Shown: positions 32,041 through 61,074 of the stretch, in pieces
Numbering within the stretch: the first letter of the stretch is position 1
Layout: each line of letters begins with the position of its first letter
Assembly (NCBI RefSeq): GCF_000002985.6
Contig: NC_003280.10
Span: 2,906,001-2,970,000 of the forward strand
Length of the DNA: 64,000 nt
Direction: 5' to 3'
Origin: Caenorhabditis elegans
Lineage: Eukaryota; Nematoda; Chromadorea; Rhabditida; Rhabditidae
The notes under the pieces: model-generated
Database searches by the model: none
Seen by the model: the letters and a program-made list of their open reading frames with translations, nothing else
What the model was told of the DNA's origin: nothing
Translations under genes and position numbers: made by a program

Positions 32041-34847
32041 CTAGACTAATTGACTACAAACTACAAACATGATAAATGTTAAAAAATGGGATTTTGCCAC
32101 TGAGGTTTCTGAAATTTTGATAGTTAAAAAATATGGAAGTTTTCATGAGATTTTACCAAAAGCGTCTCCTTTGAATATAAGTTTTGTCTGAAAGTTGGCG
32201 GCAAATAAAGAAAACTTTTCAGTTTTTAATAAGGAATTATTGTCCACAATTATGATACGATTGCCGCTGGTTATGATGTTCTGAAAAAATGTAGCTGTTG
32301 AAGAAATGTGTGAGAAGTAGAAAAAGAAAAGGGAAAAAAAGAGAGAAAGATAGAAAAAAGAAAAAAAAAGGAGAAAAAAAACAGAGAAAAAAAAAGAATA
32401 AAAAGAGTAAAAAAAAAGGAAGAAAGAAGGAAAACACAGGAGAAAAAAAAGAAGAAAAAGAAAAGAAAGAAAAAAGAGAGAAAGAGAAAAAGGGAATAAT
32501 AGAAAAAAGAACAAATAGGAAAGAAGAAAAGAAAGAAAAGACAGAAAAAAGAGAGAAAAGAGAGAAAAAGAGAAAAAAAAAGAAAAAAAAACAAGGGAGA
32601 GAAAAAAAATGAATGAAACAAAATGGGAAAAAAAAGAAAAAAGAAAGAAAAAAATAGGAAAAAAAGAAGGAAAAAAAAGAAAAAGAAAGACAACAAGACA
32701 ATCAAGAAAAACGTGAAAATTTTAGAAAGAAAAAGATAAAAGAACAAAAAACAAAGAAAAAAAGAAAGAAAAGAGAGAAAAAAGAGAGTAAAAAGAAAGA
32801 AAGAGAAAAAAAAAGAAAAAAGATTGAAAAACTGGAAAAAAGAAGAATTAAAACCTACCTCCAACCAAGGAATATAGGCAAACGTCAGCCTATGGTTCCC
32901 CACAATTTGAACAGTAAGGGCATCACTGTCCAAGTTCCCAATAAATTTCAGCTTTCCCAAAAATCCCAAGTCTTCCAATTGGGTATTCCGAACCACCAGA
33001 GACCCGAATAAATGTGTCATTTTTTTCAGTTTCCACACGAATTCCTCATCTCCAGCTTCCAAAACGACTTTTCCGTAGATAAACAGACAAAATGGCTCAA
33101 GTGAGCTCATATTTAAAAATTCACAAAATTCATTTTCCTCAAAAAATGTATCTATTCCGCAGTATTTCGCTTGAATATTTGTGAAATAAACGAGCTCTTC
33201 CATGAAAAGCTTCAATTCTCCGAAGGTTAGACAGAAATCCGGGTGAAGATTTTCCAGGTTCATGATCACTGGCCCAAAGCCATCAATAGCAAAGTTCTGC
33301 AAAAATATACTTAGTTTGGGTCCCGCCACGAAAATTGAAGATCAAAGTTTCAACTTACATTCAAAGATGGAACAGCAAGCCTTGTCATTTCTGGATTATT
33401 TCTAACATTGACTATGACATTTTCGTACATGAAATTTTTCGCTCGAACAACTCTCAACTTTTTCAAAAATGACAAATTCTGAAGGTGCATCTGCTGAATA
33501 TCAATGTAGCTTCTTATTTCTCGAACGTTTGCGAAACTCGGTAGATCTGTAGTTGAGATATTGGTCAGGTTCAAGCCTGTCACAGTTGTACAATTTTGGA
33601 ACTCGGGCATGGTGTCGAGTGCTATCTTATCACCACGGCAACCTGCAAGTTTTGTTAAGCTTAGGCTTAGGTTCAGGCTTAGGCTTTGGTTTAGGCTCAG
33701 ACTCAGGTTAGGCCTAGGCTTGAGCTTGAGCTTAGGCCTAGACTTAGGCCTAGGCTTGAGCTTGAGCTTGAGCTTAGGCTTAGGCTTATGCTTCGGCTTA
33801 ACCTTAGGCTTAGACTTTGGCTTAGGCTTAGACTTTGGCTTAGACTTAGGCCTAGGCCTAGGCATAGACTCAGGCTAATGCTAAGGCTTAGGTTTAGGCT
33901 TCGGCTTCGGCTTAGGCTTGGGATTAGGCTTAGGTTTGGTGCTGTTGTTCCAAAACTTTCGTGACGAGACCCAATAACTTACCACAATCCCTGCGATTCC
34001 CCGAGACTTTTAGTGAATACATGCCCTGTAAAAACCAGGATTGACACACTGAACTTGCATTCAGCTTCTCATTATTTTCAACTCGAAATGCACATTCTTT
34101 GCTGAGCCGGTCAGTTTCCAGTAGAAAGTAGTCAATGATTCTGACACTTGTGAGCTCCGAATTGTTGAGAACCGACATACCGACTGAAAAATGTTACCAT
34201 AACTATGTAAAACTATCCAAAAAACTACAGTTAACTCACAAGTTTTACAGTTGAATGTTATTGAGTCTACGTCATGCACCCAAAAAATCGATAAATTTTG
34301 AAAACCTGTGTTCTCAAATGTGATCCCGCCGGAGAAAGTTCTCATATTTTTGAATAAAGTAACTAATTCAGAATGTGATAGATCCGTGTCAGAATTAAAC
34401 GTAAGAATCCCGCATACTGTATCGCAGGTTGTTGGGAAGTATTGAGCAGTAGAAGATGTGACTTCAGAATGATTAAAGGTGCATAGAGGATCTAAAATTT
34501 GAGTAGATATTTAAATTTTGAGTATTTCACCAGTTGGAAGTTTTTGATATCTCTAACCATTCCGGAGATATAAAGGGTTAAAGGAAAACCGCGAGAGAGT
34601 GTAGGGGGAGGGGAGACGCAGATGGCGAGAGTGTTCTGCGTCTCCCCCTCCCCCACACTCTCTCGCGTATCAACTTTGAAGCGGCATAACTCAGCAACGA
34701 GAAGAGCTATCTATTTGAAACTTTTTCGTCATTGCAGCAATTTTTCCATCGAATTTCCTTACCACACTTATGAGTCAACGATAATTTTTCCAAATTTGAA
34801 TTAAAATCCGCTAGAACAAGTGACACCAAACAGGAGAGAAAACGCAT
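32041..34847 (-). CDS. Receptor L-domain protein, beta type (copy E)
   Basis: Exons are 34847-34763, 34491-34240, 34183-33983, 33642-33359, 33296-32859, 32280-32157 and 32108-32041 (483 residues). Signal MRFLSCLVSLVLADF then LSLTHKCG; L1 CTFNHSEVTSSTAQYFPTTC, GGITFENTGFQNLSIF; L1/L2 join GCRGDKIALDT; LRVVRAKNFMYENVI; L2 NLENLHPDFCLTFGELK, DEEFVWKLKKMTHLFGSLVV; tail FLTFIMFVVCSQLV. It is the only intact beta copy on the minus strand, and no alpha copy is head to head with it. Introns carry a MITE (intron 1), a TTAGGC array (intron 3) and a polypyrimidine tract (intron 5). Confidence 0.85.
32330..32855. repeat. Polypurine/polypyrimidine tract in intron 5 of copy E
   Basis: About 520 bases of A/G on the + strand (AAAAGAGAGAAAGATAG-like) with scattered T and C, intronic in copy E, again polypyrimidine in the transcript. 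It lies at a different intron position from the tract in copy D. Confidence 0.9.
33645..33945. repeat. Interstitial TTAGGC-like array in intron 3 of copy E
   Basis: About 300 bases of AGGCTT/AGGCCT hexamers with drift (TTAGGCTTAGGTTCAGG). It is in the intron between the L1 exon and the CRGD exon. In another frame it yields K/P or L/G repeats that are not real proteins. Confidence 0.85.
34530..34740. mobile_element. GAGACGCAG palindromic element in intron 1 of copy E
   Basis: This foldback has GGGGAGACGCAGATGG and CTGCGTCTCCCC with outer arms AGTTTTTGATATCTCTAACC and GGCATAACTCAGCAACG. It lies between the signal-peptide exon and the CTFN exon, the same intron as in G and K. Confidence 0.75.
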
Positions 34848-34940: not shown

Positions 34941-37900
34941 CTAGTAATATTCATTTGGAGAAAATGAAAAGTAGAAAACAAAGAAAATGGAGAGTTTACA
35001 AGTTTGTCCCTCGGAAAACACGTAGATTTGACGGTCTGAAAGTTTTCGAAGCTGAAATTTCAAGTCTAGAGCTTAAGTTTTGGGCTTTACCACAATCCTG
35101 ATTATTGATCGGAAGTCTTGCATTATAAGTAAGCCGAAACAGGAGACACTTGTCATTATTCTCGAATAATGCTTCATTATCGTAGAGGACTATTGTTTCG
35201 TTGCCGACGGAAATTACATTCTGCAAAAAAAGACTTATCCTATTTGAAAATTAAATTTTTAAAGACCTTAGTTCATCACAAAACAGAATATCTGCATAAA
35301 ATTTGAGTAGACATTTGAATTTTGAGTATTTCACCAGTTGGAAATTTTTTGATATCTCTAACCATTCGGGAGATACAAGGGGTTAAAGGTAAGAGGCGCG
35401 AGAGTGTAGGGGCAGGGGAGAAGCAGAGGGGGAGAGTGTGCTGCGTCTCCCCTCCTCCCACACTCCCTCGCGTATTGTCTTTAAAACGGCATAACTCAGC
35501 AACGAGAAGAGCTATCAACTTGAAACTTTTTTGTGTTTGCAGCAAATTTTTCAGAGAATTTACTCACCAAAAAACAAATGACACTGAACTAGACACAGTC
35601 CCAAAATTGTTCCCAAAACTGCGTACTTACCTCTAGAGCAGGCAAAACTGCTTGCGTGAGAAATTTATTGGATCGTATTAGCACTGCTGGCCGGGACGCT
35701 GAAAATTCTCCAATTTCTCTGAAAATTCTTAAATTCCTACCATCCAAGTTGGCAATCGTAACAAGATTAGACAAAAAGAATAAGCCCTCAATCTTTGAAT
35801 ATTGAATTTTCAAGGAGCCAAATATTGTACCAACGTAGAAAAGCTTGTACAAAAATCTTCCATCGTTAGCATCGACCACCACGTCGCCAAAAAGCGATGT
35901 GCAATTTTCTTTCAGCGTGCTCAGTTTTTGAAATTTACACACATCAGTGTTCTGGCTTTCAGTTTCATTGTACACGTCCGCACAATATCTTGCATGTAGA
36001 TTTTGGAGTTTTATTCTCCGGTTTAGGAAGCCGGCCATTTCGTCGAAGGTGAGGCAAAAGTCTGGGTGCAGATTTTGCAGATTTATTGTATAGTCGCCGT
36101 ACATTTTATCGATGAGATCCTGAATCAAAACTGTAGGTTTCAGACAATTTTCACGAAAAAGGTACAAGTGGCGCAGTGGGATTTCTCACATGCTTCACTC
36201 AGAAGGTCGAGGGTTCAATCCCGGTTGTGGTCTGACATTTTTGTTTAGCACAAAAAGTACTGTAAATGGTCTTAACAAGCTTGAAACCCTTGAGTTTTGA
36301 TATTTTCAGAAATTCCTCCAAAAATGCTCAAATGGCGCAGTGGGATTTTCGATTAGATTGACCCAGAAGGTCTGGAGTTCAATCCCCGCGGTGGTCTAAT
36401 ATTTTTGTTTGGCACCAACCTTATTATAAATGAAAAAATTCTCACTTACATGTAATTTAGGAAATCCCAAACGTTTCATCTTAAAATTATTTGCAATATG
36501 CATTAGAGCTTTCTCTGTAAATTCCATGTTCACGCTAGAAATTGAGTACAATTCGGCGAGAAACGATAAGTTTTGGAAATTAGTCATCTGAATATCAACG
36601 TCTCCTCGAATATATTGAACATTTGATAAAGCTGATAAATTTTCAGAAAACGTGAAATTGATTAATCGCAGTCCTCCGTTTAAACTGGTACAATCTCGAT
36701 AAGTATGAATATTAGTCTCTGTAATAAGGTCTCCACGACATTCTGGAAAAAAGTGGACTTAGAAAAAAAAATTTGGAGGCAATGGGGATTGAACCCTTGA
36801 CCCTCTGGGCCAAGTAAATCCAAAATCGCACTGCGCCACTTAAACATTTTTGAAAAAATGTCGAAAGCAACGAAATTCAATAATTTCCAGCTTGTTAGAT
36901 ACATTTTAACCACAGTAAATGCCCAACAAAAATAGTTGATCACTGGCGGGGATTGAACCCTTGACCCTCTGTTCTGAGTTATTCGAAAATCTCACTGCGC
37001 CACTTGCTCATTTTTTTTTCACTTATTTTTCAGCAGAATTCAAATTTTTTCAATTTTTTTTCAAAAACTCACTGCAATCTTCCAAATTTCGCTCAACAAC
37101 CGGATTTATGATCTCCGTAATTTTCCACCAATCGCATAAATAGCTGGCATTCAGTTTTTCGTTTCCTTCAACTCGAAATGAGCATTGAAATCTACGGTTT
37201 ACCACGTTATAGAATAGAAAATTACTGATAACATCTATATTTGTCAGCTGGGAATTGTTAGTAATTGATAATCCGGCTGAAAATCAGGATTTTCCGAATA
37301 AATCGCTTGTTAAGGACTTACAAGATGTACAGCCATATCCGAAGCTGCGATTCGGATTTTTTGGAATAAAAGATAGACTTTTAAGGTTAGTATCATGGAT
37401 TTTTAGACTTCCATATAAAAGGTTCATATCCTTGAACAAATCCGTCAATTCTCGCTCCGTCAGATCCGTGCTGGAGTTGATAACCAGCAGAGCGCAAAAA
37501 TACTCACATTTGTTCATATTTGGGAAGTATTTTATAGTTTCCGATGTGATTAGAGAGTGATTAAATGTGCAATGGGGTACTGGAAAAAAAAATAAAAAAA
37601 TTTGACCACAGCGGGGATTGAACCCTTGACCTTCTGGGCTGAGGAAATCCAAAATCCCACTGCGCCATTTGAGTATTTTTGGTAAAAATGCCCAAAATGG
37701 CGAAATTCGATGGGTTTGAGCTTGTCAATCACATTTTGACAACAATAAAAGCTAAAGAAAAATATTCGGCCACAGTGGGGATTGAACCATTGACTCTCTG
37801 GGCCGAGGAAATCCAAAATCCCACTGCGCCATTCTTACAAACTAGCGAAAAATCAAGAATTTAAAGGGTTTCAAGCTGAATTTTAGCATATTTTAGGCAC

Positions 37901-38066
37901 GTTTTCTGTTTAAAAGAAAAAAAATCGGGTGTAGAATAACTTTTTTGACCATATTTTACTCACAACAATCCCGAACTCTTCGGAGCTCTTCATGCTCCGT
38001 GTCGAAATCCGCCGAAGCACTAAAAAATACGCAGAAAATATAGAAAATAAGCTGCAACCGATTCAT
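34941..38066 (-). CDS. Receptor L-domain protein, alpha type (copy F)
   Basis: Exons are 38066-37964, 37579-37322, 37276-37073, 36742-36450, 36119-35741, 35698-35631, 35220-35091 and 35035-34941 (509 residues). Signal MNRLQLIFYIFCVFFSASA; L1 CTFNHSLITSETIKYFP; GSLKIHDTNLKSLSFI; CRGDLITETNIHTYRDC; IRGDVDIQMTNFQNLSFL; L2 NLQNLHPDFCLTFDEMA, NDGRFLYKLFYVGTIFGSLK, VLIRSNKFLTQAVL; tail CKLSIFFVFYFSFSP. For the last exon the downstream acceptor (CTTTCAG at 35,036) gives this family-like tail; an upstream one gives a shorter, non-hydrophobic end. Introns 1, 3 and 4 carry tRNA-like units and intron 6 a MITE. It is head to head with copy G. Confidence 0.85.
35330..35535. mobile_element. GAGACGCAG-family element in intron 6 of copy F
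   Basis: This foldback has a mutated core: GGGGAGAAGCAGAGGG on one arm and CTGCGTCTCCCCTCC on the other. Its outer arms match the copy at 34,530 closely (TTTGAGTATTTCACCAGTTGG), so these two are sisters. Confidence 0.75.
36162..36400 (+). repeat. Two tRNA-like units in intron 4 of copy F
   Basis: Each unit has an A-box-like TGGCGCAGTGGGAT (starting 36,169 and 36,333) and a B-box-like GGTTCAATCCC or AGTTCAATCCC ~45 bases later, then GTGGTCT and a T-run. Spacing is 164 bases. They run antisense to the host gene. The flanks (CTTGAAACCC, TTTTCAGAAAT) are also repeated. Confidence 0.8.
36775..37010 (-). repeat. Two tRNA-like units in intron 3 of copy F
   Basis: These are minus-strand versions of the same unit. 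On the + strand they read GGGATTGAACCC (B box complement, ~36,785 and ~36,952) and CACTGCGCCACTT (A box complement). They are in the same orientation as the host gene. Confidence 0.8.
37605..37840 (-). repeat. Two tRNA-like units in intron 1 of copy F
   Basis: On the + strand the complements GGGATTGAACC and CCCACTGCGCCATT recur with a spacing of ~164 bases (B boxes near 37,613 and 37,777). They are in the same orientation as the host gene. Confidence 0.8.
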
Positions 38067-38181
38067 GATCGACTAATAAAACAAGAAAAAATTGGCGCGA
38101 CAGAGAAAGCGACACCCGTGATTAGCCCGAACTTTTTCTTGAGTACTTCTATTTTTTAATCTAAAGAAAATCGACATTCTT
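38067..38181. promoter_or_regulatory. Shared promoter of irld copies F and G
   Basis: A 115-base gap lies between divergent ATGs (38066 minus, 38182 plus). It has no repeat. It contains GCGACAGAGAAAGCGACACC. Like the A/B and J/K gaps it is short, so the two genes probably share control elements. Confidence 0.55.
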
Positions 38182-40814
38182 ATGTATTTTCTTTTATGTT
38201 TTATACTCTTTATTCCATTTATTCTGTCGGATTTTGCATATGACTTGGAGAAACTTACGTTAACACATAAATGTGGTAAAAATCTTGAAATATCTTACTG
38301 CCAAAATGTTAAGCAAAAAATTCTACACATTTCATCAGTTGGAAATTTTTTGATAGCTTCAACGGCTGCAGAGATAATCAGCTGCAAAGTTTTTCACCGA
38401 GAGAGCATAGGAGAGGGGAGACGCAGCGAGGCGCGCTGCGTCTCCCCTCGCTCCACACTCTCTCGCCCTTTACTTTAAAGGGGGATATCTCTGCAACGGA
38501 TAGCGTTATCAAAAAATTTTCAACTGCAAAAATATTCAGAAAAACATTTTCTACTTGATTTCAGACCTTCAATGCACATTCAACCACTCCGAGATCACTT
38601 CGAAAACCACCGAATTTTTCCCAACAAATTGCGAGACTGTTTGCGGAATATTAACATTCAATTCTAACACAGACATGTCACCGTCTCAACTCAAACAACT
38701 TTTCAAAAACCTGAGAACGTTGTCTGGTGGATTGCGATTCGAAAACACAAATCTTACAAATTTATCGGTTTTCTACGAGAAACCCGGATGCAAATTCTGC
38801 ACAGATTTCAAGTTCAATTGCAAAACTTGTGAGTTTAGGCTTAGGCTTACATTAGGTTAAAAGTTGGGCTTAGGCTTAGACCTAGGTTTAGGCTCAGGCT
38901 AAGGCTTAGGCTCAGGCTCAAGCTTAACATTTTGGGCCTAGGACTGTGCATTTTTTCAGTTGGACTTTCCGTGATCAACAACTCCGTTTTGAAAAATGCA
39001 GATATTTTTCATAAATTTGAACTAGAAACCGACGAGCAATCGAAAGAATGCGCGGTACGGTTTGAGAATAATACAAAATTGGATGCCAGGGATCTTTGCG
39101 AATATGACCCTTTTGGCAAGCTGTTCAGTGTGATTTTCAGAGGAAATTCCAAGGATTGCGGTAACTATTTTCCTTTAATTTTAGGCCCAGTTTCAGCTTG
39201 TTCCAGGTTGCCGCGGCGACCAGATCACTGCCGATTCTATGAAAAAACTACGAAAATGCTCAGTAATTTTCACTCTAAACTTGACAAACATCTCTAAATT
39301 CGACGCGGATTTTCTGGATCTTTCGCGAATCTACGAAGTACGTGGATTGGTGGAGATTCGCGGCACTGACGTCACAAATTTGTCGTTTTTGAAGAAGCTG
39401 GAAGAGATTCGTTCGAATAATGGGGTGACACATGAGAATGTTCTTTTTAACATTCGCGATAATCCGAATATGACAACATTTGGAATGCCGGTGTTGAATG
39501 TGAGTTATGGTGAGAGGCGTAAGGGTAAAGTGGGCGTAGATGTAGGCGTTAGGTACCAGGACTACGGCGTAGGCTTAGTGCTAGACGCAGGCATAGGCAT
39601 ATGTGTATGAATAGGCGTGGGCGTGGGCGTAAACGTGGACATGGGCGTGTGCGTGGGAGTAGGTGTATGTGTAGGTGTGGGCGTATGTGTCGGCGTATGC
39701 GTCTGTGTATGTGTAGGCGTAAGTCGATGCCCTAAATGGCCTAAACGCCCTAAAAGCCCTAAACGTCATAAACGCTCAGAATGCCCTAAACGCCCTGAAC
39801 GGCCTGAAAGGTCTTAACGCCCTTAACGTCCCAAACGGTCTAAACGGCCTAAAAAGCCTATACGCCCCAAACGACCCACACGGCCTAAAAAACCAAAACG
39901 CCCTGAATGTCACAAACGGCTTAAAAGATCTTAACGCCCTGAAAACCCCAAACGGCCAATAAGGCCTAAAAAGCCTATACGCCCCAAAGGACCCACACGG
40001 CCTAGAAAATCTAAACGCCCTGATCGGCCCTGATGGCTTAAACGACCTTAAAGGCTTAAACGCCCTAACCCTAAGCAATTGTACTACAGATTCTTTCCGA
40101 CGAAACCAAAGGCCCATTTATCATGAACCTGGAGAATCTACATCCTGACTTTTGTCTAACATTTCACGAAATGATCGGGTTTCTGGACGCTCAAGTCTAT
40201 TTTAAAAATATTCATGCAAACTATTGCCTGGACGGTGTATCTTTTAGCGAATCTCTATGTCAGTTTTTCAATATGAGCTCTCTTCCCGAAAAGTGCACTT
40301 ATATATATGGAAATGTGGAAATTAACGCTGGAGATGAAGAATATGTATATAAATTGAGTTATGTATCCGATATATACGGGTCCTTGTCTATCAAGAACAC
40401 AATTTTAAAAGATCTAAACTTTTTGAGTAGACTCATGTATATAGCATTATTGGAAGAAAATCGATATGTTATTCAAATTATATCAAATCCATTTCTCTAC
40501 AAAGCAAGATTGCCTATGATTTCGGTGAGGTAGTGCAGTGTCGGCTGCAAGATTGTTTCTGTTTTAGAATATAATAACAAAGGGTAGCCGCACCGTAGCA
40601 GTACATAATAACTCTATGTTGTCCCATGATTTCTTTCAGTTTTCGAGTACCTATACGACAAATGTCGCGTTTATCGGGGACTCATTTGGTGAGGCTTGCT
40701 CAGAATTGGGCAGAAAAACTGAAATATTTCATTGCAGAAAGTTCCTATTCAACGTCTTCTCATTGTTTTTTACCTTTTGTTATTTGTTTTCTAACAAAGT
40801 TTGAAGTAACATGA
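38182..40814 (+). CDS. Receptor L-domain protein, beta type (copy G)
   Basis: Exons are 38182-38275, 38565-38828, 38960-39160, 39207-39499, 40090-40524, 40568-40688 and 40738-40814 (494 residues). Signal MYFLLCFILFIPFILSDF, LEKLTLTHKCG; L1 CTFNHSEITSKTTEFFPTNC, GGLRFENTNLTNLSVF; GCRGDQITADS; VRGLVEIRGTDVTNLSFL; L2 NLENLHPDFCLTFHEM, DEEYVYKLSYVSDIYGSLSI; C-terminal tail FLPFVICFLTKFEV. Intron 6 is 49 nt; reading through it also stays open but gives a different tail. Introns hold a MITE (1), TTAGGC words (2) and two minisatellites (4). Confidence 0.85.
38335..38550. mobile_element. GAGACGCAG palindromic element in intron 1 of copy G
   Basis: This foldback has a short loop: GGGGAGACGCAGCGAGG and CGCGCTGCGTCTCCCC, with outer arms TTTTTTGATAGCTTCAACGG and CTCTGCAACGGATAGCG. 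Confidence 0.75.
39505..40080. repeat. Two minisatellites in intron 4 of copy G
   Basis: 39,520-39,725 is (G/T)GGCGTA-type hexamer DNA (GTGGGCGTGGGCGTAAACG). 39,730-40,075 is built of ~9-12-base units based on CCTAAACGC (GCCCTAAACGCCCTGAACGG), including a repeated longer block GCCTATACGCCCCAAA at ~39,857 and ~39,974. Confidence 0.85.
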
Positions 40815-41180
40815 TTAGAGCCTAACTGACAAAGTTGTGCCGATGCACCATGAACAGTAATTGAAGTGCACACGTTAAAAGTTTAAGACCTTCTTTTTTT
40901 AAATTACAGTAGCCACTTTGTGTGGTTAGGCCTAAGCTTAGGCGTAGTTTTAGGCTTTGACCTTAGGCTTAGGCTCAGGCTTAGGCTTTGGTTAAGGCTT
41001 AGGCTGCGCAGAAAGTATATATAATCTCTACTCGGGTACATGTATGTATGTTGATTGAAACTTCAATGACGTGCCTCTAACATTTTCGATAATTGGTACT
41101 TGTGTTTCTGAGACATAGAGCATGAAAATATAAATTCAATCACTTTTGTGTTAGTTTCCTCCAACACCACCCCTGCCAAA
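40815..41180. other. Spacer between copy G and the first srw gene
   Basis: It contains a short TTAGGC-like array (40,925-41,010) and a 170-base unique stretch before the srw start (41,010-41,180) that should hold its promoter. Confidence 0.45.
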
Positions 41181-42434
41181 ATGAACGATGGGCTAGACTA
41201 TCCGGTATACGAAAACTTCAAAAATATTGTCAGCGAGATAGACGTTGTTCAAAATTATGCCTCCACTGCTGGGGTGATCATGAACATTCCACATATTTTT
41301 ATACTAACCAGAAGCTCTATGCGAACCTCCAGCACCAATTCCCTAATGATCGGAATCGCAATCTGTGACATTTTATATTTGTCGATATTAGCAGAGTTAT
41401 GGATTCGGAATGCATATTTCAGTGACTTTCTCTGTATCAACGTGGGATCCTACGCATATATAGTGTCTGCATGGATCCTGGAATGCCTTCGCGATCTTAT
41501 TGAAAAAGCTTCCTTCTGGCTGGGATTTATGTTGGCAATGACCCGATATATAATCATGAAGTCCTCTGGAAGAGCTGACAAGCTTGCAAGACCATCATCA
41601 GGTTATCTTATTACATTTATCATTTCTGTCATCAGTGCAGCGCTGTCTGGGTGGTACTATGGTAGGTACTATTTAGAAAAAGACCAGAATCTATGGATTA
41701 TGTGGGATGAGTGAGTGATTAACAATTAGGTGCGTTTAAAAAATTGGTTTTTTTTAAAGATGTGCCGGGTATCGACCAAAAGTGAAAGGCATCAGATACT
41801 TTCTGGTTATGGATGACGCGGCGATTCATAGTCGGTCCCATACAATCATTAATGCAATTTCCAGAGTAATCTTGCATACTTCCTCCAAACTCTAAAATTC
41901 CCACATTTTCAGACACTTATAAGCTTTCTCTACCCAATCATTGGTGTCTTGCTAATGGTGGAGATTCGTAGATCAGCAAAGTTTGCGGCAAAAAAGCTGA
42001 AAAGCGAGAAGAGCGCGACGGAAAGGTTGGTTTTGTAGCTGAAACCCCCCCCCCCCCCCCCCAGTATTGTCTTCAACATTGATCTTCAGATACCACGCCA
42101 GCCGTATGATCCTTGTGATGACAGTCATGTACTTCCTGGCCAGTGCGCCCATTGGAGCGCTAGACTTTATTAACGTATCCGAGATAGTTACTGAATCTTC
42201 CTTTCTACGTCTCAGCCTAGACCATAGTGCCTACCTCATGTCTGCTATATTTTGCTTGAATTCGGCTTCACATTGCATTATTAATCTCTCAATGTCTTCC
42301 GCTTACCGTAATACTATTAAGATGAGTTGGATGAGGTCACCAAAGAGCGTTAAGATATTCACGGTATGGATTAGTTGAACCGAAGAGAGCAAAAACTGTG
42401 ATTTCAGGTCACCAGGATCAAGTCTATCGGATGA
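41181..42434 (+). CDS. srw-family chemoreceptor-like GPCR (copy H)
   Basis: Exons are 41181-41710, 41760-41865, 41913-42025, 42090-42363 and 42408-42434 (349 residues). Typical srw features are TM1 ending NIPHIFILTRSSMRTSSTNS, TM2 LMIGIAICDILYLSIL, TM3 KASFWLGFMLAMTRYIIMK (the srw 'WLG..MA..R' motif), TM4 YLITFIISVISAALSGWYYG, an ECL2 with a Cys (MWDECAGYRPK), TM5 TLISFLYPIIGVLLMVEIRR, TM6 MILVMTVMYFLASAPIGALD and TM7 MSAIFCLNSASHCIINLSMS. The family includes nematode chemosensory and FMRFamide-like peptide receptors; no ligand can be inferred. It lies 3' of irld copy G in the same orientation, as L lies 3' of K. Intron 3 contains an 18-C run. Confidence 0.85.
42045..42062 (+). repeat. 18-base poly(C) run
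   Basis: An uninterrupted run of C lies in intron 3 of the first srw gene. The complementary G18 could form a quadruplex and is a probable site of length variation. Confidence 0.9.
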
Positions 42435-42729
42435 AGGTCCTAGATTAAAATTAAATATGTTTTTAAAAAATTATTTGGGCTTTTGAATGAACACGAATTT
42501 GTTGTTTGAAACACCTATGGCGTGATTCACATTGTATGACTAGTAATTGGCACCAACCACTGGTAACTCTAATTGCTCCATATACACCACTTTTGTAAAT
42601 TCTCTCATACACTATTTTGAAGGGAAGTACCAAAATATGAAAACTCTTCAATGCACTTTGAGGCGCGGGGTGTAAAAATTCTTTTCAAAATTTGTCTTCC
42701 ATCGAAATGAGAATAAAATTCTATACATT

Positions 42730-42910
42730 TCATCAGTTGAAAGTTTTTTGATATATTTTTTCGCTGCGGAGATATAGAGGCTCAAAGTTGTTGGACGATG
42801 TGCGCTGCGCCTCCCCTCCCCCCACACTCTATCGCCTCAGAACTTCAACCTCTTGTATTTCCCGAATGGTTAGAGCTATCAAAAAACTTCCGACTGATGA
42901 TATGTTTAGA
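42730..42910. mobile_element. Truncated GAGACGCAG-family element
   Basis: It has the outer arm words (CATTTCATCAGTTGAAAG and GAGCTATCAAAAAACTTCCG) and a right core GCTGCGCCTCCCC, but the left core is deleted. It lies in the 3' flank between H and I; the rest of 42,435-42,981 shows nothing recognisable. Confidence 0.6.
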
Positions 42911-42981
42911 ATTTTATTTTCTGTATGATCAATTTATAATCAAACCCAACAAATGCTTTAATAGACCTGAAAATTGGAAGT

Positions 42982-45900
42982 TTAAAGGAACACTATGTGT
43001 GAGATTAATAAAAGGAGCACAAATTCAATTCCAAATCCAGATTTTCTCTTTGCTTCTGTAAGAAAACCTATACAATTTTCAGACTCCGGTTCTTCAAAAT
43101 TACCACAATCCTGAATCTCAACCTTGATATCAGTTCCGGTGTTATCGTTAATTTTATAATTGCATTGTTTATTCCCATTGATCAACATGGAATTATCACG
43201 AAGTACAACTTCTTTCTTGCTCTCCGCGATTACACTCTGAAAATAAAAAAAAACAATTGAATTTCCTAGCACCAGACACTTCGCGGGACTCCACTCACCA
43301 TTAGGTTGTTCAGTTTGGCGCTTTTGAGATATTGGTTAGAAGTGATAGATATTGCTGGGAGAGTTGCTAAAACAATACATTTTAAAATTTTATGAGTCGC
43401 GGAGCCAAACCATCCAAAGAAGCAACATGTGATAAGTTGTCCAAAAACTTTAAGCCTTCTGTCTTGGTATTTTGAACAGTCACTGACCCAAATATAAAGC
43501 CCACACCAAAAAACTTGGACATATACCTTCCATCGTTTTCTCCAAATACAACATCTCCAAAAATTGCGTTACAGTTTTCGTCGAGAGTGGATAAGTTTTG
43601 AAATGTACAAAATTTTTGGAATAGTCCTCCATCCTCATCTTCGCAATATTTGGCTTGTATATTTTCGAAATTGATAGTGGACATTGCGAGGAAAACTAAC
43701 ATTTCGGCGATTGTCAGACAGAAATCGGGGTGTAGATTCTCAATGTTCATGGAATAGCGGATAAAGTTAGAGTCGTAGAGCATCTGGAAAGTTGAAATTC
43801 CGAGTTTTTACAGAAAACTGCCCGAGTGGCGCAATGGGATTTTCGAGATCTCTGGCGCAAAAGGTCACGGGTTCAATTCCCGCTGTGGTCAAAAGTTTTT
43901 TGTGTGCTCAGTTCTGTACGACAAATGTGTTAAAATCTTCTGAAAACTCAAAATTCCAAGTTTTCCCAAAAATGGGTCAAATGGTACAGTGGGATTTTCC
44001 ACGAATTCTAAGTAGATGGTCGTGAGTTCAACTCCCGCTGTGGTCAAAATCTTTTTGCATGTTCAGTTCTGTGTGCGGTAAATATGTTTAAAATTTCTGG
44101 AAACTTGAAATTCCAAGTTATTCAGAAATTTGTCCAAATGGCGCAGTGGGAAATTCGATTTCTCTGACCCAAGAGGCCACGGGTTCAATTCCCGCTGTGG
44201 TTAAAAGTTTTTTGCGTGCTCAGTTCTGTACGGTAAATGTGTTAAAAACTTCTGGAAACTTGAAATTCCAAGTTATTCAGAAATTTGTCCAAATGGCGCA
44301 GTGGGAAATTCGATTTCTCTGACCCAAGAGGCCACGGGTTCAATTCCCGCTGTGGTTAAAAGTTTTTTGCGTGCTCAGTTCTGTACGGTAAATGTGTTAA
44401 AAACTTCTGGAAACTTGAAATTCCAAGTTATTCAGAAATTTGTTCAAATGGCGCAGTGGGAAATTCGATTTCTCTGACCCAAGAGGCCACGGGTTCAATT
44501 CCCGCTGTGGTTAAAAGTTTTTTGCGTGCTCAGTTCTGTACGGTAAATGTGTTAAAAACTTCTGGAAACTTGAAATTCCAAGTTATTCAGAAATTTGTTC
44601 AAATGGCGCAGTGGGAAATTCGATTTCTCTGACCCAAGAGGCCACGGGTTCAATTCCCGCTGTGGTTAAAAGTTTTTTGCGTGCTCAGTTCTGTACGGTA
44701 AATGTGTTAAAAACTTCTGAAAACTTCAAATTCCAAATTTTTCAAAAAGTGTTCAAATAGCGCAGTGGGGTTTTCGAGTTCTCTGTCGCAAAAGGTCACG
44801 GGTTCAATTCCCGCTGTGGTTAAAAGTTTTTTGCGTGCTCAGTTCTGTACGGTAAATGTGTTAAAAACTTCTGAAAACTTCAAATTCCAAATTTTTCAAA
44901 AAGTGTTCAAATAGCGCAGTGGGGTTTTCGAGTTCTCTGTCGCAAAAGAACACGGGTTCAATTCCCGCTGTGGATAAAGGGTTTTTACATGTTCAGTTCT
45001 ATATGGTAAATATGTTTAAAATTTCTGGAAACTTGAAATTCCAAGATTTTCGGAAAATCGTTCAAATGGCGCAGTGGGGGTTTCGATTTCTTAGGCGCAA
45101 AAGGTCACGGGTTCAATTCCCGCTGTGGATAAAGGGTTTTTACATGTTCAGTTCTATATGGTAAATATGTTTAAAATTTCTGGAAACTTGAAATTCCAAG
45201 ATTTTCGGAAAATCGTTCAAATGGCGCAGTGGGGGTTTCGATTTCTTAGGCGCAAAAGGTCACGGGTTCAATTCCCGCTGTGATGAAAAGTTTTTTGTTT
45301 TTTATGAAGATGATGTACTCACTCCCAACTTTTCCCATCCAAAACGTGTCATTGCATAATTATCATGAATATTTGCCAAAACCCGCCCATCTTCATTCCT
45401 CCCGGCAATAGTTTTGAGTTTTCCCAGAAACGATAAATCCTTAAAGCCATTCCAGCTAATCTCCACATCTCCTTTGATAAAAGTGACCTCTGACAACGCA
45501 GTCAGCTGATCCACCGAAGTAAAATTCGACAGCCGTAGTCCTCCATTAAGCACCGTACAGTTTTGGTACTCCTGTATGTTATCAGTTGTGATAAGGTCTC
45601 CACGACATCCTAAAAAAATCATAAGGTAATCATATGAAATGATAAGGAGACTTACGGCAATCCTTCAAATTCCCAAAAACTTCTAGACCAACTAGCTGAA
45701 GAATCTCCCCGCGCTCACAAAGTGTGGTTGCGTCGAGAATTTTATTATCTGCCACGTGGAAAAGACATTCTTTCAGGTTTATTGATAAGAAATAGAAGTC
45801 AGTTAGAATATTGATATTGGAAAGTTTTGAGTTGTTAACTAGTGATACCCCATCTGGAAATTTTGAAGACTTATAGTTAAAGAAAAGTTGTAAAGAAAAG

Positions 45901-46729
45901 TTCTTTAAAACTTACGGTTATCCAAACAAACTAGATGGAATGCCTTTGTTATCTTGTTCAATTTGAAAAATGATAAGCTTTCCAGACTTGAATTATCAAT
46001 TGTTAAGCCTCCAACTAGCTCGGACATATCTTTAAATGCTACTTTCAATTTCTCCTCTGTTAAGTTAGAGTTCGAGTTTATCATTAGAAACCCGCATACT
46101 GTCTCGCACTTTTTCGGGAAAAAATCAATAGTTTCAGAAGTTAGTTCAAAGTGGTTGAATATGCATTTGTTGTCTGAAAAATTGAAACATTTTTCGAAAA
46201 GTTGTCCGAATGGCGCAGTGGGATTTTTGATTTCTTTGGCACAGAGGGTCACGGGTTCAATTCCCGCTGTGGTTAAAATTATTATGCATGATCAGTTCTG
46301 TACGGTAAATGTGTTAAAAGCTTCTGGAAACTTGAAATTCCAAGTTTTCCCCAAAATGATTCGAATGGCGCAGTGGGATTTTTGATTTCTTTGGCACAGA
46401 GGGTCACGGGTTCAATTCCCGCTTTGGTTCAAATTTTTTTGCATGATCAGTTCTGTACGGTAAATGTGTTAAAAGCTTCTGGAAACTTGAAATTCAAAGT
46501 TTTCCCCAAAATGATTCGAATGGCGCAGTGGGATTTTCGACATCTTCTGCGCAAAAGGCCACGAGTTCAGTTCCCCGCAATGGCTAATAGTTTTTAAATG
46601 TGTTGAAAACTTGGACATTCTAATAACATACATACCACATAAATTTTGCGCTTTGAGTTCTTTCAAATCCTTGTTGAAATCTGCGGAATTTGATAAAAAC
46701 TGACAAAATAAAACAAGTAACAAAAACAT
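42982..46729 (-). CDS. Receptor L-domain protein, alpha type (copy I)
   Basis: Exons are 46729-46636, 46173-45916, 45853-45656, 45609-45323, 43783-43411, 43366-43299, 43236-43104 and 43055-42982 (494 residues). Signal MFLLLVLFCQFLSNSADF; L1 CIFNHFELTSETIDFFPKKC, GGLTIDNSSLESLSFF; RCRGDLITTDNIQEYQNC; IKGDVEISWNGFKDLSFL; L2 NIENLHPDFCLTIAEM, NDGRYMSKFFGVGFIFGSV; tail GIEFVLLLLISHIVFL (GPI-signal type). It is the sister of J by sequence (both have NSNSNLTE/SE, LVGGL). Its 1.5-kb intron 4 is almost entirely a tandem array of tRNA-like units; intron 1 has three more. Confidence 0.85.
43815..45290 (+). repeat. Ten-copy tandem array of 155-bp tRNA-like units
   Basis: A-box-like TGGCGCAGTGGG (variants TGGCGCAATGGG, TGGTACAGTGGG, TAGCGCAGTGGG) starts at ~43,827, 43,982, 44,139, 44,294, 44,449, 44,604, 44,758, 44,912, 45,067 and 45,222. 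Each is followed ~46 bases later by ACGGGTTCAATTCCCGCT (B box in a good 4-5-bp T-arm stem; one copy has GAGTTCAACTCCCG) and usually then TAAAAGTTTTTTG or a similar T-run. The remainder of each unit is GTGCTCAGTTCTGTACGG .. GAAACTTGAAATTCC. The acceptor and anticodon stems do not pair well, so these are not functional tRNA genes. The similarity is to elongator tRNA-Met (TGGCGCAGTAGG, B-arm), from memory. The array is antisense to host copy I. Confidence 0.9.
46205..46590 (+). repeat. Three tRNA-like units in intron 1 of copy I
   Basis: A boxes lie at ~46,211, 46,366 and 46,521 (TGGCGCAGTGGGAT) with B boxes GGGTTCAATTCCCGC; the last copy is mutated (GAGTTCAGTTCCCCG). The period is 155 bases with the same body sequence as the 43,815 array. 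Confidence 0.9.
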
Positions 46730-47214
46730 TTCATACTCAATACAAAAAGAGCCAAGAAAAATTGTGAGGAATATAATTGACGGAGTAAGTAGGTGGTAAT
46801 TACGCCGAAAACTTCAAAATTTTTAAAATTTTTCTTCAAATGTGAACTTTAACGAAAAAAAGGCAAATGCCAAGCTAAAACTATGACGATATTGAGTACC
46901 AAAATTAATTCCGCGATCTGAAAATTTTTGGAGCAAGTATTGAAAACCTCTGAGGCTTAAAAATCACCACAATCCTGATTGTTAATCCTAATAAAATAAT
47001 CATAAGTTATTTGATACATAAGGCATTTTTCATTATTGGCAAACAGCCCGGGATTGTCGTAGAGCATCACTTGCTCATTGCTCGGCGCGATGACAGCCTG
47101 AAAATTAATGTTATCTGTGCATCCGACATTTCCCTGGACTTTTCTACAAGCTACAGTGAGCGTCCGACATCTAACTGTGGGGAAAAGGCAATTAAAACTA
47201 GATATAAGAGATAT

Positions 47215-47275
47215 AAGGCCTATGCCTAAGTCTAAGACTAAGCCTAAGACTAAGTCTTAGCCTAATGTAAGCCTA
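47215..47275. repeat. Short TTAGGC-like stretch in copy J
   Basis: CCTAAGTCTAAGACTAAGCC-type words occur in the intron between exons at 47,288 and 47,097; this is the complement of the TTAGGC series seen in copies B, E and G. Confidence 0.6.
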
Positions 47276-47799
47276 AGCTCAACTTACTCGAAGATTTGGA
47301 AGTAAACCTTGCTTCAAATAACTATTTGATCTGATCAGAATTGCTGGACGAGATGCTACAAAATATTATTTATTTATTTATTAAATTTATAACATTCAAC
47401 TCACCATCCAACGAGGCAACATACCGCAATTCGCCCAAAAAATACAATCCCTCAATTTTGGTATACTGTACTTTCAACGAACCAAATATAAACTCAACAT
47501 GGAAAAGCTTGTACAAATACCGCCCGTCGTTCGCGTCCACAACCACATCACCCACAATCGACGTGCAATTTTCTGGCAAAGTGATCAATGTTTGGAAGTT
47601 GCACAGTTTTTTGAAAAGTTTTGGATTAGTCGCTTCTTCGTTTACTTCGGTTTCACAATATTTGGCTTGTAGATTTTGAAAGTTGATCACCTTGCTTTCC
47701 ACAAAAAATTGACTTCCGGAAGGGTGAGACAGAATTCTGGATGCAAGTTTTCCAGGTTCATTATGAAACGGCCGCCGAGTTTGTCGTAGAAGAACTGGA

Positions 47800-48495
47800 A
47801 ATTTAGCATGTCACACAGCCCGGTAGGCGCCGGAACATGAGAAATGCGCAGCCGACATGATCCTAGAAACACTGTTACCAGGACGATGTCGGCTGTTTGA
47901 GTATCCTGTGCACCTGCCGACACCTAACGGGTCTCTATGGGGTGGCGGCACCCGGTGGGTGTCGCTGGAAAAGAAGCAACCGACACAGTTATGGATTCAC
48001 GGTGTCCAGGAAAACGTCGGCTGCTTGATTTGATTTTGGGTTTCTAGTGCACCAGCCGACGTCTGATGGGGTTGTCATTTTCCAGTGTCTGGCGGAACCC
48101 GACAGGTGTCGGGTGCCAAGAAAAGGGCAGCCGAGACTGCCTTAGGTTGCTACTTGGCGCCGACACTTGCTAGGAGCTAGGAAAAGTATGCAACCGACAT
48201 TTCACTGGAGTTGCAGCGTCCAGGAATATAACGACCGCGTTTACCCGGCAGATATCGGGTGCTGGGAATTGTGCAGCCGACACGTCGCTGGGGTTTCAGC
48301 ATCCGAGAATGTTCCGGCTCAGCGTCCGACACCTTCCTTATAAGTTAGCTACTGTGTCGGCCACAAGAAAAGGAGTACCCGACATAATTCCAGATTTGCA
48401 ACGTGCAGGGAAATGTTGGCTGCTATAGTAGAGTAGACTTGCAAGGGCATATCCAATGAGGATTCAAACCCGCTAGATGTCGGCCGCTGCAAACT
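47800..48495. repeat. GTCGGCTGC-motif array in an intron of copy J
   Basis: About sixteen occurrences of (T)GTCGG(C/G)TGC or its complement GCAGCCGACA, in alternating orientations, are spaced irregularly by 30-70 bases and linked by CCAGG, TGGGGTT and GGTGCTGGGAA words. The intron is GC-richer than its surroundings. The same motif occurs at 28,620-28,795, 40,535, 55,917 and 56,278. Confidence 0.8.
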
Positions 48496-49376
48496 AACAT
48501 TTTTCGGTCCCCAACCAAGGCGCTTCATCCCATAATTCTCCCGAATATCCATCGTAACCCGCCGTTTGCCTTTCCCATTTTGTGAGGCAACTTGCCGGAG
48601 CCCTTGTAAAAATGACAAGTCCTCAATATCATTTCTCGAAATTTCAACATCCCCTTTGATCAAATACACATTTGATAAACCCGTCAAATCATCGGCCGAC
48701 GTGAAGTTCGACAGCCGTAGTCCTCCGTTGAGAACCGTGCAATTTTGGTACTCGCGAATGTTATCCGTAGTGATAAGATCCCCACGGCAACCTAAATTAT
48801 CAGATAAAAGGTAAGAAATTTGAGAAAACCTTCCACAATCCTTGAAATTCCCGGAAATTTCCATACCAATCATCTCATACATCATTCCCCGCTCGCAAAG
48901 TGTCGTTGCATCGAGAATTGGATTATTTGCCACGTGGAATGGACATTCGTTTGTTATCACTGATACAAAAAAGAAGTGATTTAAAATATCAATATTGAAT
49001 AATTTAGAATTGTTTATAATTGATATCCCATCTGAAATTGAGAAAAATATTGCAAAAAAAAAAATTATCCCGAATTTTCTAAGCTTACAATTTGCCATGC
49101 ATTCCAGATTAAATTCTGCTCGGTTTTTGCTCAGAGCAATAAATGATAAGCTCTCCAGACTTGAATTTTCTACTATAAGCCCTCCAACTAACTTGTACGT
49201 CTCTTGAAAGACCACTTTCAGCTGAGTCTCTGATAAGTTCGAGTTGGAGTTGATCACGAGAATACCGCACACGGCTTTACACTTTTTTGGGAAGAATTTG
49301 ATAGTTTCGGAAGTTAGTTCGGAATGATTGAATGTGCATTTGACATCTGAAAAATTAGGAAAAAATTCGCAGATGT

Positions 49377-49915
49377 GGGCATGTGGCGCAGTGGTATTTT
49401 TGATTTCTTCAGAGCAGAAGGGTACGGGTTCAATCCCCGCCAGGGTGAATCAATTTTTATTTGTTTTATTTGACGTTGAAAATGTGTCATAAACTTCCGA
49501 AAACACATAATTGCACGTTTTTCAGGAAACTGTCCAACTGGCACAGTGGTATTTTGATTTCTTTGGAGCAGAAGGTCACGGGTTCAATCCCCGCCAGGGT
49601 GAATCAATTTTTATTTGTTTTATTTGACGTTGAAAATGTGTCATAAACTTCCGAAAACACATAATTGCACGTTTTTCAGGAAACTGTCCAACTGGCACAG
49701 TGGTATTTTGATTTCTTTGGAGCAGAAGGTCACGGGTTCAATCCCCGAGAGGGTGAATCAATTTTTATTTGTTTTATTTGGCGTTGAAAATGTGTCATAA
49801 ACTTCCGAAAACACATAATTTCACGTTTTTCAGGAAACTGTCCAACTGGCGCAGGGGTATATTTGACATCTTTGGAGCAGAAGGTCACGGGTTCAATCCC
49901 CGCATGGGAAAATAA
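49377..49915 (+). repeat. Four tRNA-like units in intron 1 of copy J
   Basis: A boxes lie at ~49,384, 49,539, 49,693 and 49,847 (TGGCGCAGTGGTAT, TGGCACAGTGGTAT), with B boxes GGGTTCAATCCCCG, and TTTTT after three of them. The period is 154-155. The body (TTCCGAAAACACATAATT) differs from the copy I type, so this is a local sub-family. They are antisense to the host gene. Confidence 0.9.
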
Positions 49916-50040
49916 TTTTTGTTTGATTTGTTAACAACAGCTAACTCACCACAAAGTTCATTTGCCCGAACTGCTTCCAAATCCTGTGCAAAATCAGAGA
50001 CAATCCCAGAGAAAGAGAAAAAAAGCAATATAAGGTTCAT

Positions 50041-57540: not shown

Positions 57541-58210
57541 GCCTACCATTGCCTACCTGCCTATTCCTACCTGTCTATGCCTACCTGCCTATGCTTAGCT
57601 ATCTATGCCTACCTGCCGTTGCCTACCTATCTGCGCCTACCTGCCTATACCTACCTGCCTATGCCTACAAGCCTAGCATTTCTTCTCCGATTCTGGTGAA
57701 TAGCACATGATCAATCATATTTTCTGTTCCTTTTGTCGGTTTGTACCAGTTCTTTTTCCCATTCATACCCTTTTTTTCAATGAAAACCTTCTGATTTTTT
57801 CCCACACTATCTATCAATTGATAGATCTATGGAGGTATATTGTAGTTTTATAGAACATATTTGAAAAAAAAATTGTTTTTGAAAATGTGGAAATTTTGCC
57901 TACCTGCCTATGCCTAACTGCCGGCATCTACCTGCCTCTGCCTACCTGCCCAAGCCTAACTGCCAATGCCTCATGCCTACCTGTCTATGCCGACCTTCCC
58001 GAGCCTATCTGCCAATGCCAATTTGCCTATCCTTTCAAGGCTCACCTGACTATGCCCTCCGGCCTATGCCTACCTGCCTATGCCTACCTACCTATGCTTA
58101 CTTAAATATGCCTATCTGCCTGTGCACACCTGCCTATTCCTCCCTACCTTTTCCTACCTGCCTATGCCCACCTATCTATGCCTACCTGCCTTCGCCTATC
58201 TGCCTACCTA
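57540..58210 (+). repeat. CCTATGCCTACCTG minisatellite, block 1
   Basis: Two stretches (57,540-57,670 and 57,897-58,210) of a ~14-base unit CCTATGCCTACCTG with much drift (CCTACCTGCCTATACC). Because 14 is not a multiple of 3, the unit is open in all frames and makes false PAYAYL-type ORFs. Confidence 0.9.
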
Positions 58211-58739
58211 AAAAATATTAAAAAATTTGTTGAAAATTTTATAGTTCCCGCCAATTTTTTTAATTTAGAAAACTCGAATTTTGCGCCAAAATTTTTTTTC
58301 AAAAAAAAAATTGATTTTCAGACAAAAATAGTGATAAATTGATTTGAAATCTTAAAACTTTGTCATTTTTGCTGGAAAATTCTAGTTTCTGACCAATAAG
58401 TTTTTATATAAAATTTTAAATTTCCCGCTGAAAAAATAACTTTCCAGTTCCCTCCCGTCCTAAAGTGTGCTCAAAGTGAGCGTGAAAAAGATGTAGGAAA
58501 CAAGAAACGAGAGAGAAAATAATTTATAAACATATAAATAACTGAAAACTAAAAGAAGAGAGATGGATCACATGCAAAAAATGTTTATATGTGTGCTTTT
58601 GGCAGAGTGCCAAGAACTTTTTTTTTTCAATTTTTCATCATTTTTTTACATTTTTTTAAAATAGAAAACTTCTCCCTGATAATTTTTGTCTTTTGCATTT
58701 TTCTTCTATCTTTACCCCTTAAAAAGTTACATTGGTTTG
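58211..58739. other. AT-rich spacer
   Basis: Nothing recognisable apart from TTCCCGCCAATTTTT-like words and a short unique stretch at 58,450-58,560 (GTTCCCTCCCGTCCTAAAG). Confidence 0.35.
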
Positions 58740-59115
58740 ATGTGAGACAGTATGGAGAGCTGAGAGAGTAGAGAGTAGGGGGAGACGCAGACGGGGAGGC
58801 AGTCTGCGTCTCCTTTTCGCTCACAGTCTCTCGCCCTACCAATTTTCAAAGCGGTATATCTCTTGAAGTGTGCGAGCTATCAAAAAACTTTTAACTGAGC
58901 AAATGTAGCAAATTTTTTGCTCTACATTTTGGTAATTGACTATTTTTTCGTGTCTTCATGCCAAGCAGAGTTACACAGATTTAAATTTGGCGAGTTGAAA
59001 AGAGGACGAACCCCTCTAATTTTCAAAGCGGTATATCTCTTGAAATGTGCGAGCTATCAAAAAACTTTCAACTGAGTAAATGTAGCAAATTTTTAGCTCT
59101 ACATTTTTCTAGTTG
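58740..59115. mobile_element. GAGACGCAG-family element plus partial repeat
   Basis: A foldback (GGGGAGACGCAGACGGGGAG, GTCTGCGTCTCC) at ~58,740-58,900 is followed by a second partial unit (58,980-59,115) with the same AAGCGGTATATCTCTTGAA and AACTGAG(C/T)AAATGTAGC words. Confidence 0.7.
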
Positions 59116-61060: not shown

Positions 61061-61074
61061 CCTGAAGTCCTTAA

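Follow-up and report, generated by a model that had tools for sequence, protein, structure and literature searches.

The tandem arrays that occupy introns of three neighbouring irld (receptor-L-domain) genes on Caenorhabditis elegans chromosome II are probably local expansions of a dispersed repeat with the core of a TFIIIC site, i.e., an A-box, a B-box and a T-run. TFIIIC is a factor of tRNA genes, and in C. elegans embryos it also occupies sites without Pol III, termed extra-TFIIIC sites (Stutzman et al. 2020, PMC6950938). The arrays are best read as tandem arrays of the extra-TFIIIC type, apparently retained as putative TFIIIC-binding sites and enlarged by local duplication. The original observation was confirmed. 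Because the repeat family is spread over chromosome arms with published Pol III-free TFIIIC, the finding, although real, is mostly of a familiar type, and the irld arrays are for the most part a further case of TFIIIC-box repeats.

Repeat units in introns of three irld genes

The window, i.e., the complete 64-kb stretch analysed (chromosome II, 2.906-2.970 Mb), contains 23 units consisting of A-box, B-box and T-run: six in gene copy F, 13 in copy I (10 + 3) and four in copy J. The earlier note had counted at least 23 with the same distribution, and all of them were recovered by pattern and profile scans. At E up to 10, the scan with a profile spanning both boxes returned exactly these 23 units and zero further ones. 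The arrays extend over chromosome II 2,942,157-2,955,921, so that 23 units lie within 14 kb and ten in a single intron of copy I. The remaining irld copies of the window yielded zero units in the profile scan.

Six introns are occupied. The receptor-L-domain exons (PF01030) of F, I and J are on the minus strand, and all six host introns have GT...AG ends on this gene strand; their numbering is based on exons read by eye. In F, the minus-strand unit heads F5 (37593..37679) and F6 (37757..37843) lie in intron 1 (37580..37963), which is also defined by the PF01030 exons, and F3 (36764..36850) and F4 (36928..37014), likewise on the minus strand, lie in intron 3 (36743..37072). Intron 4 of F (36120..36449) hosts F1 (36157..36243, with the A-box at 36169, the B-box at 36212 and a T-run) and F2 (36321..36407), both on the plus strand. 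All units of I and J are also on the plus strand. Ten of them fill about 97% of the I intron that matches F intron 4 (43784..45322): Ia1 (43815..43901), Ia2 (43970..44056, with two mismatches per box pattern), Ia3 (44127..44213), Ia4 (44282..44368), Ia5 (44437..44523), Ia6 (44592..44678), Ia7 (44746..44832), Ia8 (44900..44986), Ia9 (45055..45141) and Ia10 (45210..45296). Intron 1 of I (46174..46635) carries Ib1 (46199..46285), Ib2 (46354..46440) and Ib3 (46509..46595), while intron 1 of J (49347..49949) carries J1 (49372..49458), J2 (49527..49613), J3 (49681..49767) and J4 (49835..49921). Each head was located by box patterns and profile scan. The coordinates agree with the orientations given previously, sense in introns 1 and 3 of F and antisense in intron 4 of F, in I and in J.

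When up to two mismatches were allowed, the A-box pattern matched the window 30 times as compared to 4.9 expected matches, and none of 100 shuffles reached this number. The B-box pattern alone, at two mismatches, was not above chance in the window (45 matches, 38.9 expected, 14 of 100 shuffles as high). The distance between the starts of the two boxes is 43 in 41 units and 38 in 15 units (74 readable of 75). This spacing is tRNA-like and bears out the proposal of internal promoter boxes of the Pol III type. A run of at least four T residues starts 20-30 bases past the B-box start in 22 of the 23 window units, in keeping with the claim of a T-run just downstream in most units; according to the printed sequences, the exception is Ib1 at 46199. 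In I, TRF detected two arrays with a period of 155, one of 9.8 and the other of 2.5 copies, and in J one of 3.5 copies with a period of 154; the profile scan gave a unit spacing of 164 in F. The units thus follow one another head to tail at constant intervals of 154-157 bp (I and J) or 164 bp (F), as had been noted before.

Boxes and T-run are the best-conserved parts of the unit

The A-box, the B-box and the T-run are the best-conserved parts, and the remainder of the unit drifts more, even between neighbouring units. Mean information in 36 units outside the window was 1.94 bits for the A-box, 1.67 for the B-box and 1.50 for the T-run as compared to 0.80 upstream, 0.70 in the middle and 0.16 downstream; note that these 36 units match neither box-pair pattern, that some were recruited by DNA queries with window units, and that box conservation outside the window is inflated because decayed units escape the profile more easily than those with good boxes. 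Comparison of neighbours leads to the same ranking. Flanks are less than 85% alike in 24 of 33 neighbouring pairs, and among these 24 diverged pairs box identity exceeds that of the flank in all and that of the middle part in 23 (pooled identity 0.92 for box, 0.72 for mid and 0.69 for flank). Eight of the 24 pairs lie in the window, where the arrays are without empty slots. A T-run of four or more residues is found at the same position in 70 of 74 units; in the following stretches of equal width, the numbers are 25, 10, 11 and 14 out of 74. By information content as well as by neighbour-pair identity, the boxes therefore stand out from the background of the unit.

A dispersed family on five autosome arms

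The units are members of a dispersed C. elegans repeat family, clustered by chromosome arm among the places listed. Both boxes at tRNA distance were found at 25 exact places in the genome and at none with the reversed pattern. Exact pairs of A-box and GTTCAA numbered 42 and those of A-box and GTTCGA 230, with zero for the reversed control in both cases; tRNA genes may be included among the 230. With arm limits chosen for this analysis, as for all arm counts given here, five arms (I-right, II-left, III-left, IV-left and V-right) hold 84 of 85 places found with a stricter pattern, of which none is on X, and all 68 places retrieved with the F5-F6 DNA query, including 52 that are not in the window. 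By hand count with these arm limits, 41 of the 42 A-box/GTTCAA places are on the five arms, the other being at 15.5 Mb on V, and so are 96 of the first 100 listed of the 230 A-box/GTTCGA places; those off the arms, among the matches listed, are at 0.99 and 1.00 Mb on I-left and at 4.94 and 9.77 Mb on II. Tandem spacing of about 155-165 bp also occurs at other loci. Among the matches listed (100 of 230 A-box/GTTCGA places), the other clusters are at distances above 50 kb from each of the 106 receptor-L-domain matches. The irld genes do not appear to be special targets; the family is dispersed and tracks chromosome arms.

The published extra-TFIIIC sites share these properties. They number 504, of which 96% are on autosome arms, are over-represented in introns and on I-right, II-left, III-left, IV-left and V-right, and contain Box A in 90% and Box B in 87% of cases (PMC6950938). 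Both boxes are present in 23 of 23 window units, and the likeness extends to the same five arms (by the limits chosen here) with rarity on X, to dense clusters, to location in introns and to the fact that no tRNA gene is called. CeRep3 elements, which are regarded as putative tRNA pseudogenes, account for 214 of the 504 sites (PMC6950938); the window units resemble them by description, as a dispersed, tRNA-pseudogene-like C. elegans repeat. Judged by motif, distribution and description, the family would be the one behind both the extra-TFIIIC sites and CeRep3. The word 'tandem' is absent from the main text of Stutzman et al. 2020 (PMC6950938).

tRNA likeness beyond the promoter boxes

ARAGORN called zero tRNAs in the window and in 15 unit-bearing loci but detected all seven of seven tRNA control loci. 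The tRNA model RF00005 gave no reported match at E up to 10 in four scans, from three of which one, two and one weaker same-clan matches, which may be tRNA, were left out. The tRNA detection proposed earlier for the units was accordingly negative, for RF00005 among the matches listed. None of the Rfam matches in the arrays attained the gathering score of its family, array J having been scanned within the whole window. In 28 heads, 50.4% of the cloverleaf cells are paired, compared with 50.2% in shuffles and 34.5-48.1% in six slid versions, and the cloverleaf was rejected. Pair counts agree with the previous statement that acceptor and anticodon stems do not fold, and the D stem is lost as well. 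A pairing T-arm had also been claimed, and this holds in part: its three inner pairs form in 17 to 28 of the 28 heads, but the two outer pairs form in 5 and 16.

Two other structures were considered. Single-strand folds, of which one of six heads fell below a z of -2, had given rise to the idea of a long hairpin between the A-box and the 3' side of the B-box. Its cells are paired in 73.6% of cases versus 35.7-53.6% in slid versions. However, not one pair is backed by changes in both partners, shuffles equal its level, and the hairpin was dismissed as a conserved structure. miRNA-like Rfam matches in the window were below the curated scores and were rejected, the strongest residing on palindromes away from the units.

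Local amplification versus retrotransposition

In principle, the arrays could have arisen from a tRNA-derived SINE that was retrotransposed singly into irld introns and then duplicated in tandem. SINEs usually begin with a promoter of the tRNA type that has lost its cloverleaf (PMC8450103), and some spacer sequence is distantly common to three places outside the window, where the alignment with the F5-F6 query runs through the spacer and the two heads at 66-68%. The units have in common with tRNA-derived SINEs the retained Pol III promoter boxes and the lost cloverleaf. Unlike these, they are tandem and tightly clustered by region. No target-site duplication was found at three isolated units, and the six arrays gave a single T-rich 9-mer above most shuffles; old duplications may have decayed. 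The 21 columns past the T-run carry little information (0.16 bits), tails being alike within arrays and little between loci. The tandem layout is not a late, irld-specific event, because it is also present at other loci. A SINE-type origin as envisaged in the earlier note was not borne out and is very improbable.

The units cluster largely by host gene in a tree in which several branches are weak, and Ia3 to Ia6 are 99-100% alike outside the boxes. F1-F6, Ia1, Ia2, Ib3, J1 and J4 belong to the more diverged units. Grouping by gene exceeds grouping by intron position, and on this tree with its several weak branches an origin from orthologous introns was rejected. Because of the weak branches, an ancestral intron-1 array may nevertheless have existed and been homogenised later. 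Near-identical neighbours, gene-wise grouping and strict tandem periods would also be expected of a passive satellite, in which old tRNA-pseudogene debris without present role was amplified by unequal exchange and in which the boxes look conserved owing to slow decay of copies and the preference of the profile for good boxes. The 24 of 24 diverged neighbouring pairs with boxes more alike than flanks, including the eight from window arrays without empty slots, speak against a passive satellite, and we regard it as distinctly unlikely. We favour extra-TFIIIC-type arrays, whose units would have increased in number within each host gene through unequal exchange or local copying rather than by retrotransposition. 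The boxes would be kept by selection, or by repeated replacement from functional copies, while the spacers drift.

Are the units transcribed by Pol III?

On the extra-TFIIIC reading, TFIIIC would, in embryos at least, bind the units without productive recruitment of Pol III. A T-run would not be expected to be conserved in a platform for TFIIIC alone, and its conservation is suggestive of Pol III termination. On a rival reading, the units are active Pol III genes, each giving rise, possibly at a low level or in the germline alone, to an RNA of about 85-95 nt that ends in the T-run and in many cases is antisense to irld pre-mRNA. Boxes at tRNA spacing and the fixed T-run in 70 of 74 units speak for this, and precedent exists in the mir-1829 family, intronic C. 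elegans units with internal Box A and Box B, a T-run and independence of the host gene (PMC12157501). Those units, however, are transcribed and Dicer-processed to miRNA (PMC12157501), while the ones in the window are known here from their sequence. Furthermore, Pol III and TBP are low or absent in embryos at the extra-TFIIIC class, a known noncoding RNA begins within 100 bp of only 20 of the 504 sites (PMC6950938), and neither an ARAGORN tRNA in the window nor an array Rfam match at gathering score was obtained. The published embryo data on the class thus argue against Pol III transcription, the conserved T-run keeps it conceivable, and we consider active genes unlikely. It is also quite unlikely that the conserved T-run marks elements that are, or were until lately, real Pol III genes, silent in embryos but read at a certain stage, such as in the germline, with hundreds standing poised and TFIIIC-bound on heterochromatic arms. 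If they were read at some stage, some transcripts would traverse irld introns in antisense and might modulate the irld genes. irld genes are linked to starvation.

C. elegans is without CTCF, and a possible role as boundary elements on chromosome arms has been proposed for its extra-TFIIIC clusters (PMC6950938). Conserved boxes beside drifting spacers, together with a T-run in a supposedly untranscribed class, make it a testable question whether such repeats are relics or working elements. The arrays described here are a dense, well-bounded set that could be deleted cleanly, and the irld copies of the window without profile matches could serve as controls.

Box-bearing units in three irld copies

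When the window and 19 related loci were scanned with a profile, 75 unit heads, i.e., an A-box and a B-box at tRNA distance followed by a T-run, were found at E < 0.001, along with one weak match (E 0.71) outside the window. Exactly 23 heads lie within the 64-kb window, which spans positions 2,906,001-2,970,000 of chromosome II, and all 23 units that the earlier note had counted in the irld (receptor-L-domain) gene copies F, I and J were recovered. The periods given there proved correct as well: Tandem Repeats Finder reported 155 for the copy I arrays (9.8 and 2.5 copies) and 154 for the copy J array (3.5 copies), and the unit spacing in copy F is 164 according to the profile scan.

The boxes are better conserved than the remainder of the unit; a lack of such conservation, which the earlier note had named as part of the evidence that would count against its reading, was not observed. 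Conservation was assessed on those 36 units from outside the window to which neither box-pair pattern had a match, a sample chosen to reduce search-pattern bias, although some of these units had entered via DNA queries. Mean information amounted to 1.94 bits for the A-box, 1.67 for the B-box and 1.50 for the T-run, followed by GATTTT after the A-box (1.40) and GGTCACG before the B-box (1.28), as compared with 0.80 upstream, 0.70 in the middle and 0.16 downstream. Flanks were less than 85% alike in 24 of 33 pairs of adjacent units belonging to the same array. In every one of these 24 diverged pairs, eight of them from the window, the boxes with the T-run were more similar than the flanks, and in 23 they were also more similar than the middle. 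The window arrays have no empty slot. Of 74 units, 70 (22 of 23 in the window) have a run of at least four T that begins 20-30 bases past the start of the B-box, a figure somewhat favoured by the inclusion of the T-run in the unit-finding profile; the next windows of equal width contain such a run in 25, 10, 11 and 14 of the 74 units.

Relationship to tRNAs and SINEs

The units are not tRNAs. ARAGORN found none in the window or in 15 unit-bearing loci, while all seven control loci were positive. Rfam scans with E up to 10 gave no tRNA among the matches listed in four scans, where 1, 2 and 1 weaker same-clan matches omitted from three of the scans may be tRNA; the tmRNA model picks up the T-arm of the unit. 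In a count of cloverleaf pairs, 50.4% of the cells were paired versus 50.2% in shuffles and 34.5-48.1% in slid versions. The best-pairing helix was the T-stem (65%), the inner pairs of which are fixed by the B-box itself. Of 74 units, 41 have a distance of 43 from A-box to B-box and 15 have one of 38; the anticodon region thus tolerates length change.

Nor are the units an evident SINE. A SINE-type origin, which the layout had suggested to the earlier note, is not supported: no target-site duplication was detected at three isolated units or, except for one T-rich repeat, at six arrays. The sequence after the T-run, similar inside arrays, has little similarity across loci, although three places outside the window align to a two-unit query through the spacer, with 66-68% identity.

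A dispersed family on five chromosome arms

Genome-wide, the exact box pair occurs at 25 places with a strict pattern, at 42 with another and at 230 with GTTCGA as the B-box, some of which may be tRNA genes; the reversed control gave 0 in each case. With arm limits set by us, 84 of the 85 places found with the pattern for which the whole list is available reside on I-right, II-left, III-left, IV-left or V-right, the exception being on I-left; chromosome V carries 56 and X none. Hand counts placed 41 of the 42 places and 96 of the 100 places listed of the 230 on the same five arms. A DNA query made of F5-F6, two units of copy F, matched at least 68 places (E up to 0.07), every one of which falls on the five arms; 52 are outside the window. 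The other clusters listed are more than 50 kb away from all 106 receptor-L-domain matches. It follows that irld genes host units by location, and the idea that they are special targets is not supported.

Putative TFIIIC docking sites

Stutzman et al. (2020; PMC6950938) describe 1029 TFIIIC sites in embryos, of which 504 lack Pol III or TBP. Of these extra-TFIIIC sites, 90% contain Box A, 87% contain Box B and 96% lie on autosome arms. They are enriched on I-right, II-left, III-left, IV-left and V-right as well as in introns, and are under-represented on X; 214 of the 504 overlap the CeRep3 repeat, which is suspected to represent tRNA pseudogenes (PMC6950938). The window units closely resemble them in motif, distribution and intronic setting. 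We infer that TFIIIC would bind at the 23 window units. The most likely role of each unit is that of a TFIIIC docking site, and the arrays would then form dense clusters of TFIIIC along lamina-associated chromosome arms. An insulating role of extra-TFIIIC clusters has been proposed by the authors of PMC6950938. The window units may also be transcribed by Pol III, since the mir-1829 family provides a C. elegans example of genuine Pol III genes that are intronic, carry boxes A and B and have T-runs (PMC12157501). A link between irld genes and resistance to starvation has been described (PMC9262388); any effect of the arrays on these genes is hypothetical.

Arrangement and origin of the arrays

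Tandem arrangement is a trait of the family; arrays of this form may already have been described in print. Outside the window, 17 of 20 same-strand neighbours closer than 700 bp are spaced by 140-195 bp, and of the 36 same-strand gaps below 1 kb among the 85 places, 20 measure close to 155 or 310 bp. At four loci on chromosome II (3.024-3.060 Mb; L033, L034, L035 and L082), adjacent heads often alternate in orientation and point apart, with A-boxes of divergent pairs 148-150 bp apart in five and 119-150 bp apart in eight of nine cases and same-strand periods of 282-318 bp. At L039 (~1552-1560; chromosome V 15.525 Mb), a divergent pair of heads from a CTAA-type subfamily has its A-boxes only 8 bp apart, and similar divergent pairs ~35-40 bp apart are among the places listed on chromosome III (~1.575-1.577 Mb).

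In a tree of the 23 window units, the J units form one group (97/90). Units from introns 1 and 4 of I cluster with each other, though not firmly (83/89), and five of the six F units group weakly (79/96), the sixth branching basal to those of I and J. This grouping is compatible with local copying or homogenisation inside a gene.

Host introns

The receptor-L-domain exons of F, I and J are on the minus strand. On this strand, introns with GT...AG ends enclose the arrays at 37580-37963, 36743-37072 and 36120-36449 in F, at 43784-45322 and 46174-46635 in I and at 49347-49949 in J. Removal of n heads and n-1 tails leaves ~45, 53 and 40 bases in the I and J introns and 67, 67 and 121 bases in the F introns. 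The shorter remainders come close to the length of a usual short worm intron, which is compatible with array growth inside short introns. With exons assigned by eye, units occur in intron 1 of each of the three copies, in sense orientation in F but antisense in I and J; units in intron 4 are confined to F and I, where they are antisense. These orientations agree with those reported earlier.

In the 10-unit intron of I, the inferred 3' splice site (43783-43810) lies within sequence that shares 20 of 22 bases with the unit tail. The gene strand of this intron contains 10 acceptor-like TTTCCAG/TTTTCAG motifs, about one per unit, in the unit tails within 43815-45300. The splice acceptor was either supplied or captured by the repeat. 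By eye, the J intron corresponding to intron 4 of F and I (47800-48500) is without units and contains another, imperfect repeat rich in GTGTCGGCTGC-like words.

Other repeats in the window

GC-rich palindromes of the GAGAGAGTGT...GGGGAGACGCAG type are located at 38399-38465, 50399-50456, 34590-34667, 18804-18887 and 16895-17069. They set off sub-threshold miRNA models in the Rfam scan, and two of them were placed by eye within the first introns of irld copies on the plus strand. Interstitial telomere-like arrays (TTAGGC, ATAGGC) occur at 33655-33934, 38835-38926, 40926-41005, 47218-47278 and 51413-51514, some apparently within irld introns. An 18-C run (42045-42062) resides in an apparent gene between irld copies, and 57550-62128 holds several long arrays of related 14-base units, e.g., TGCCTATGCCTACC, with up to 56 copies.
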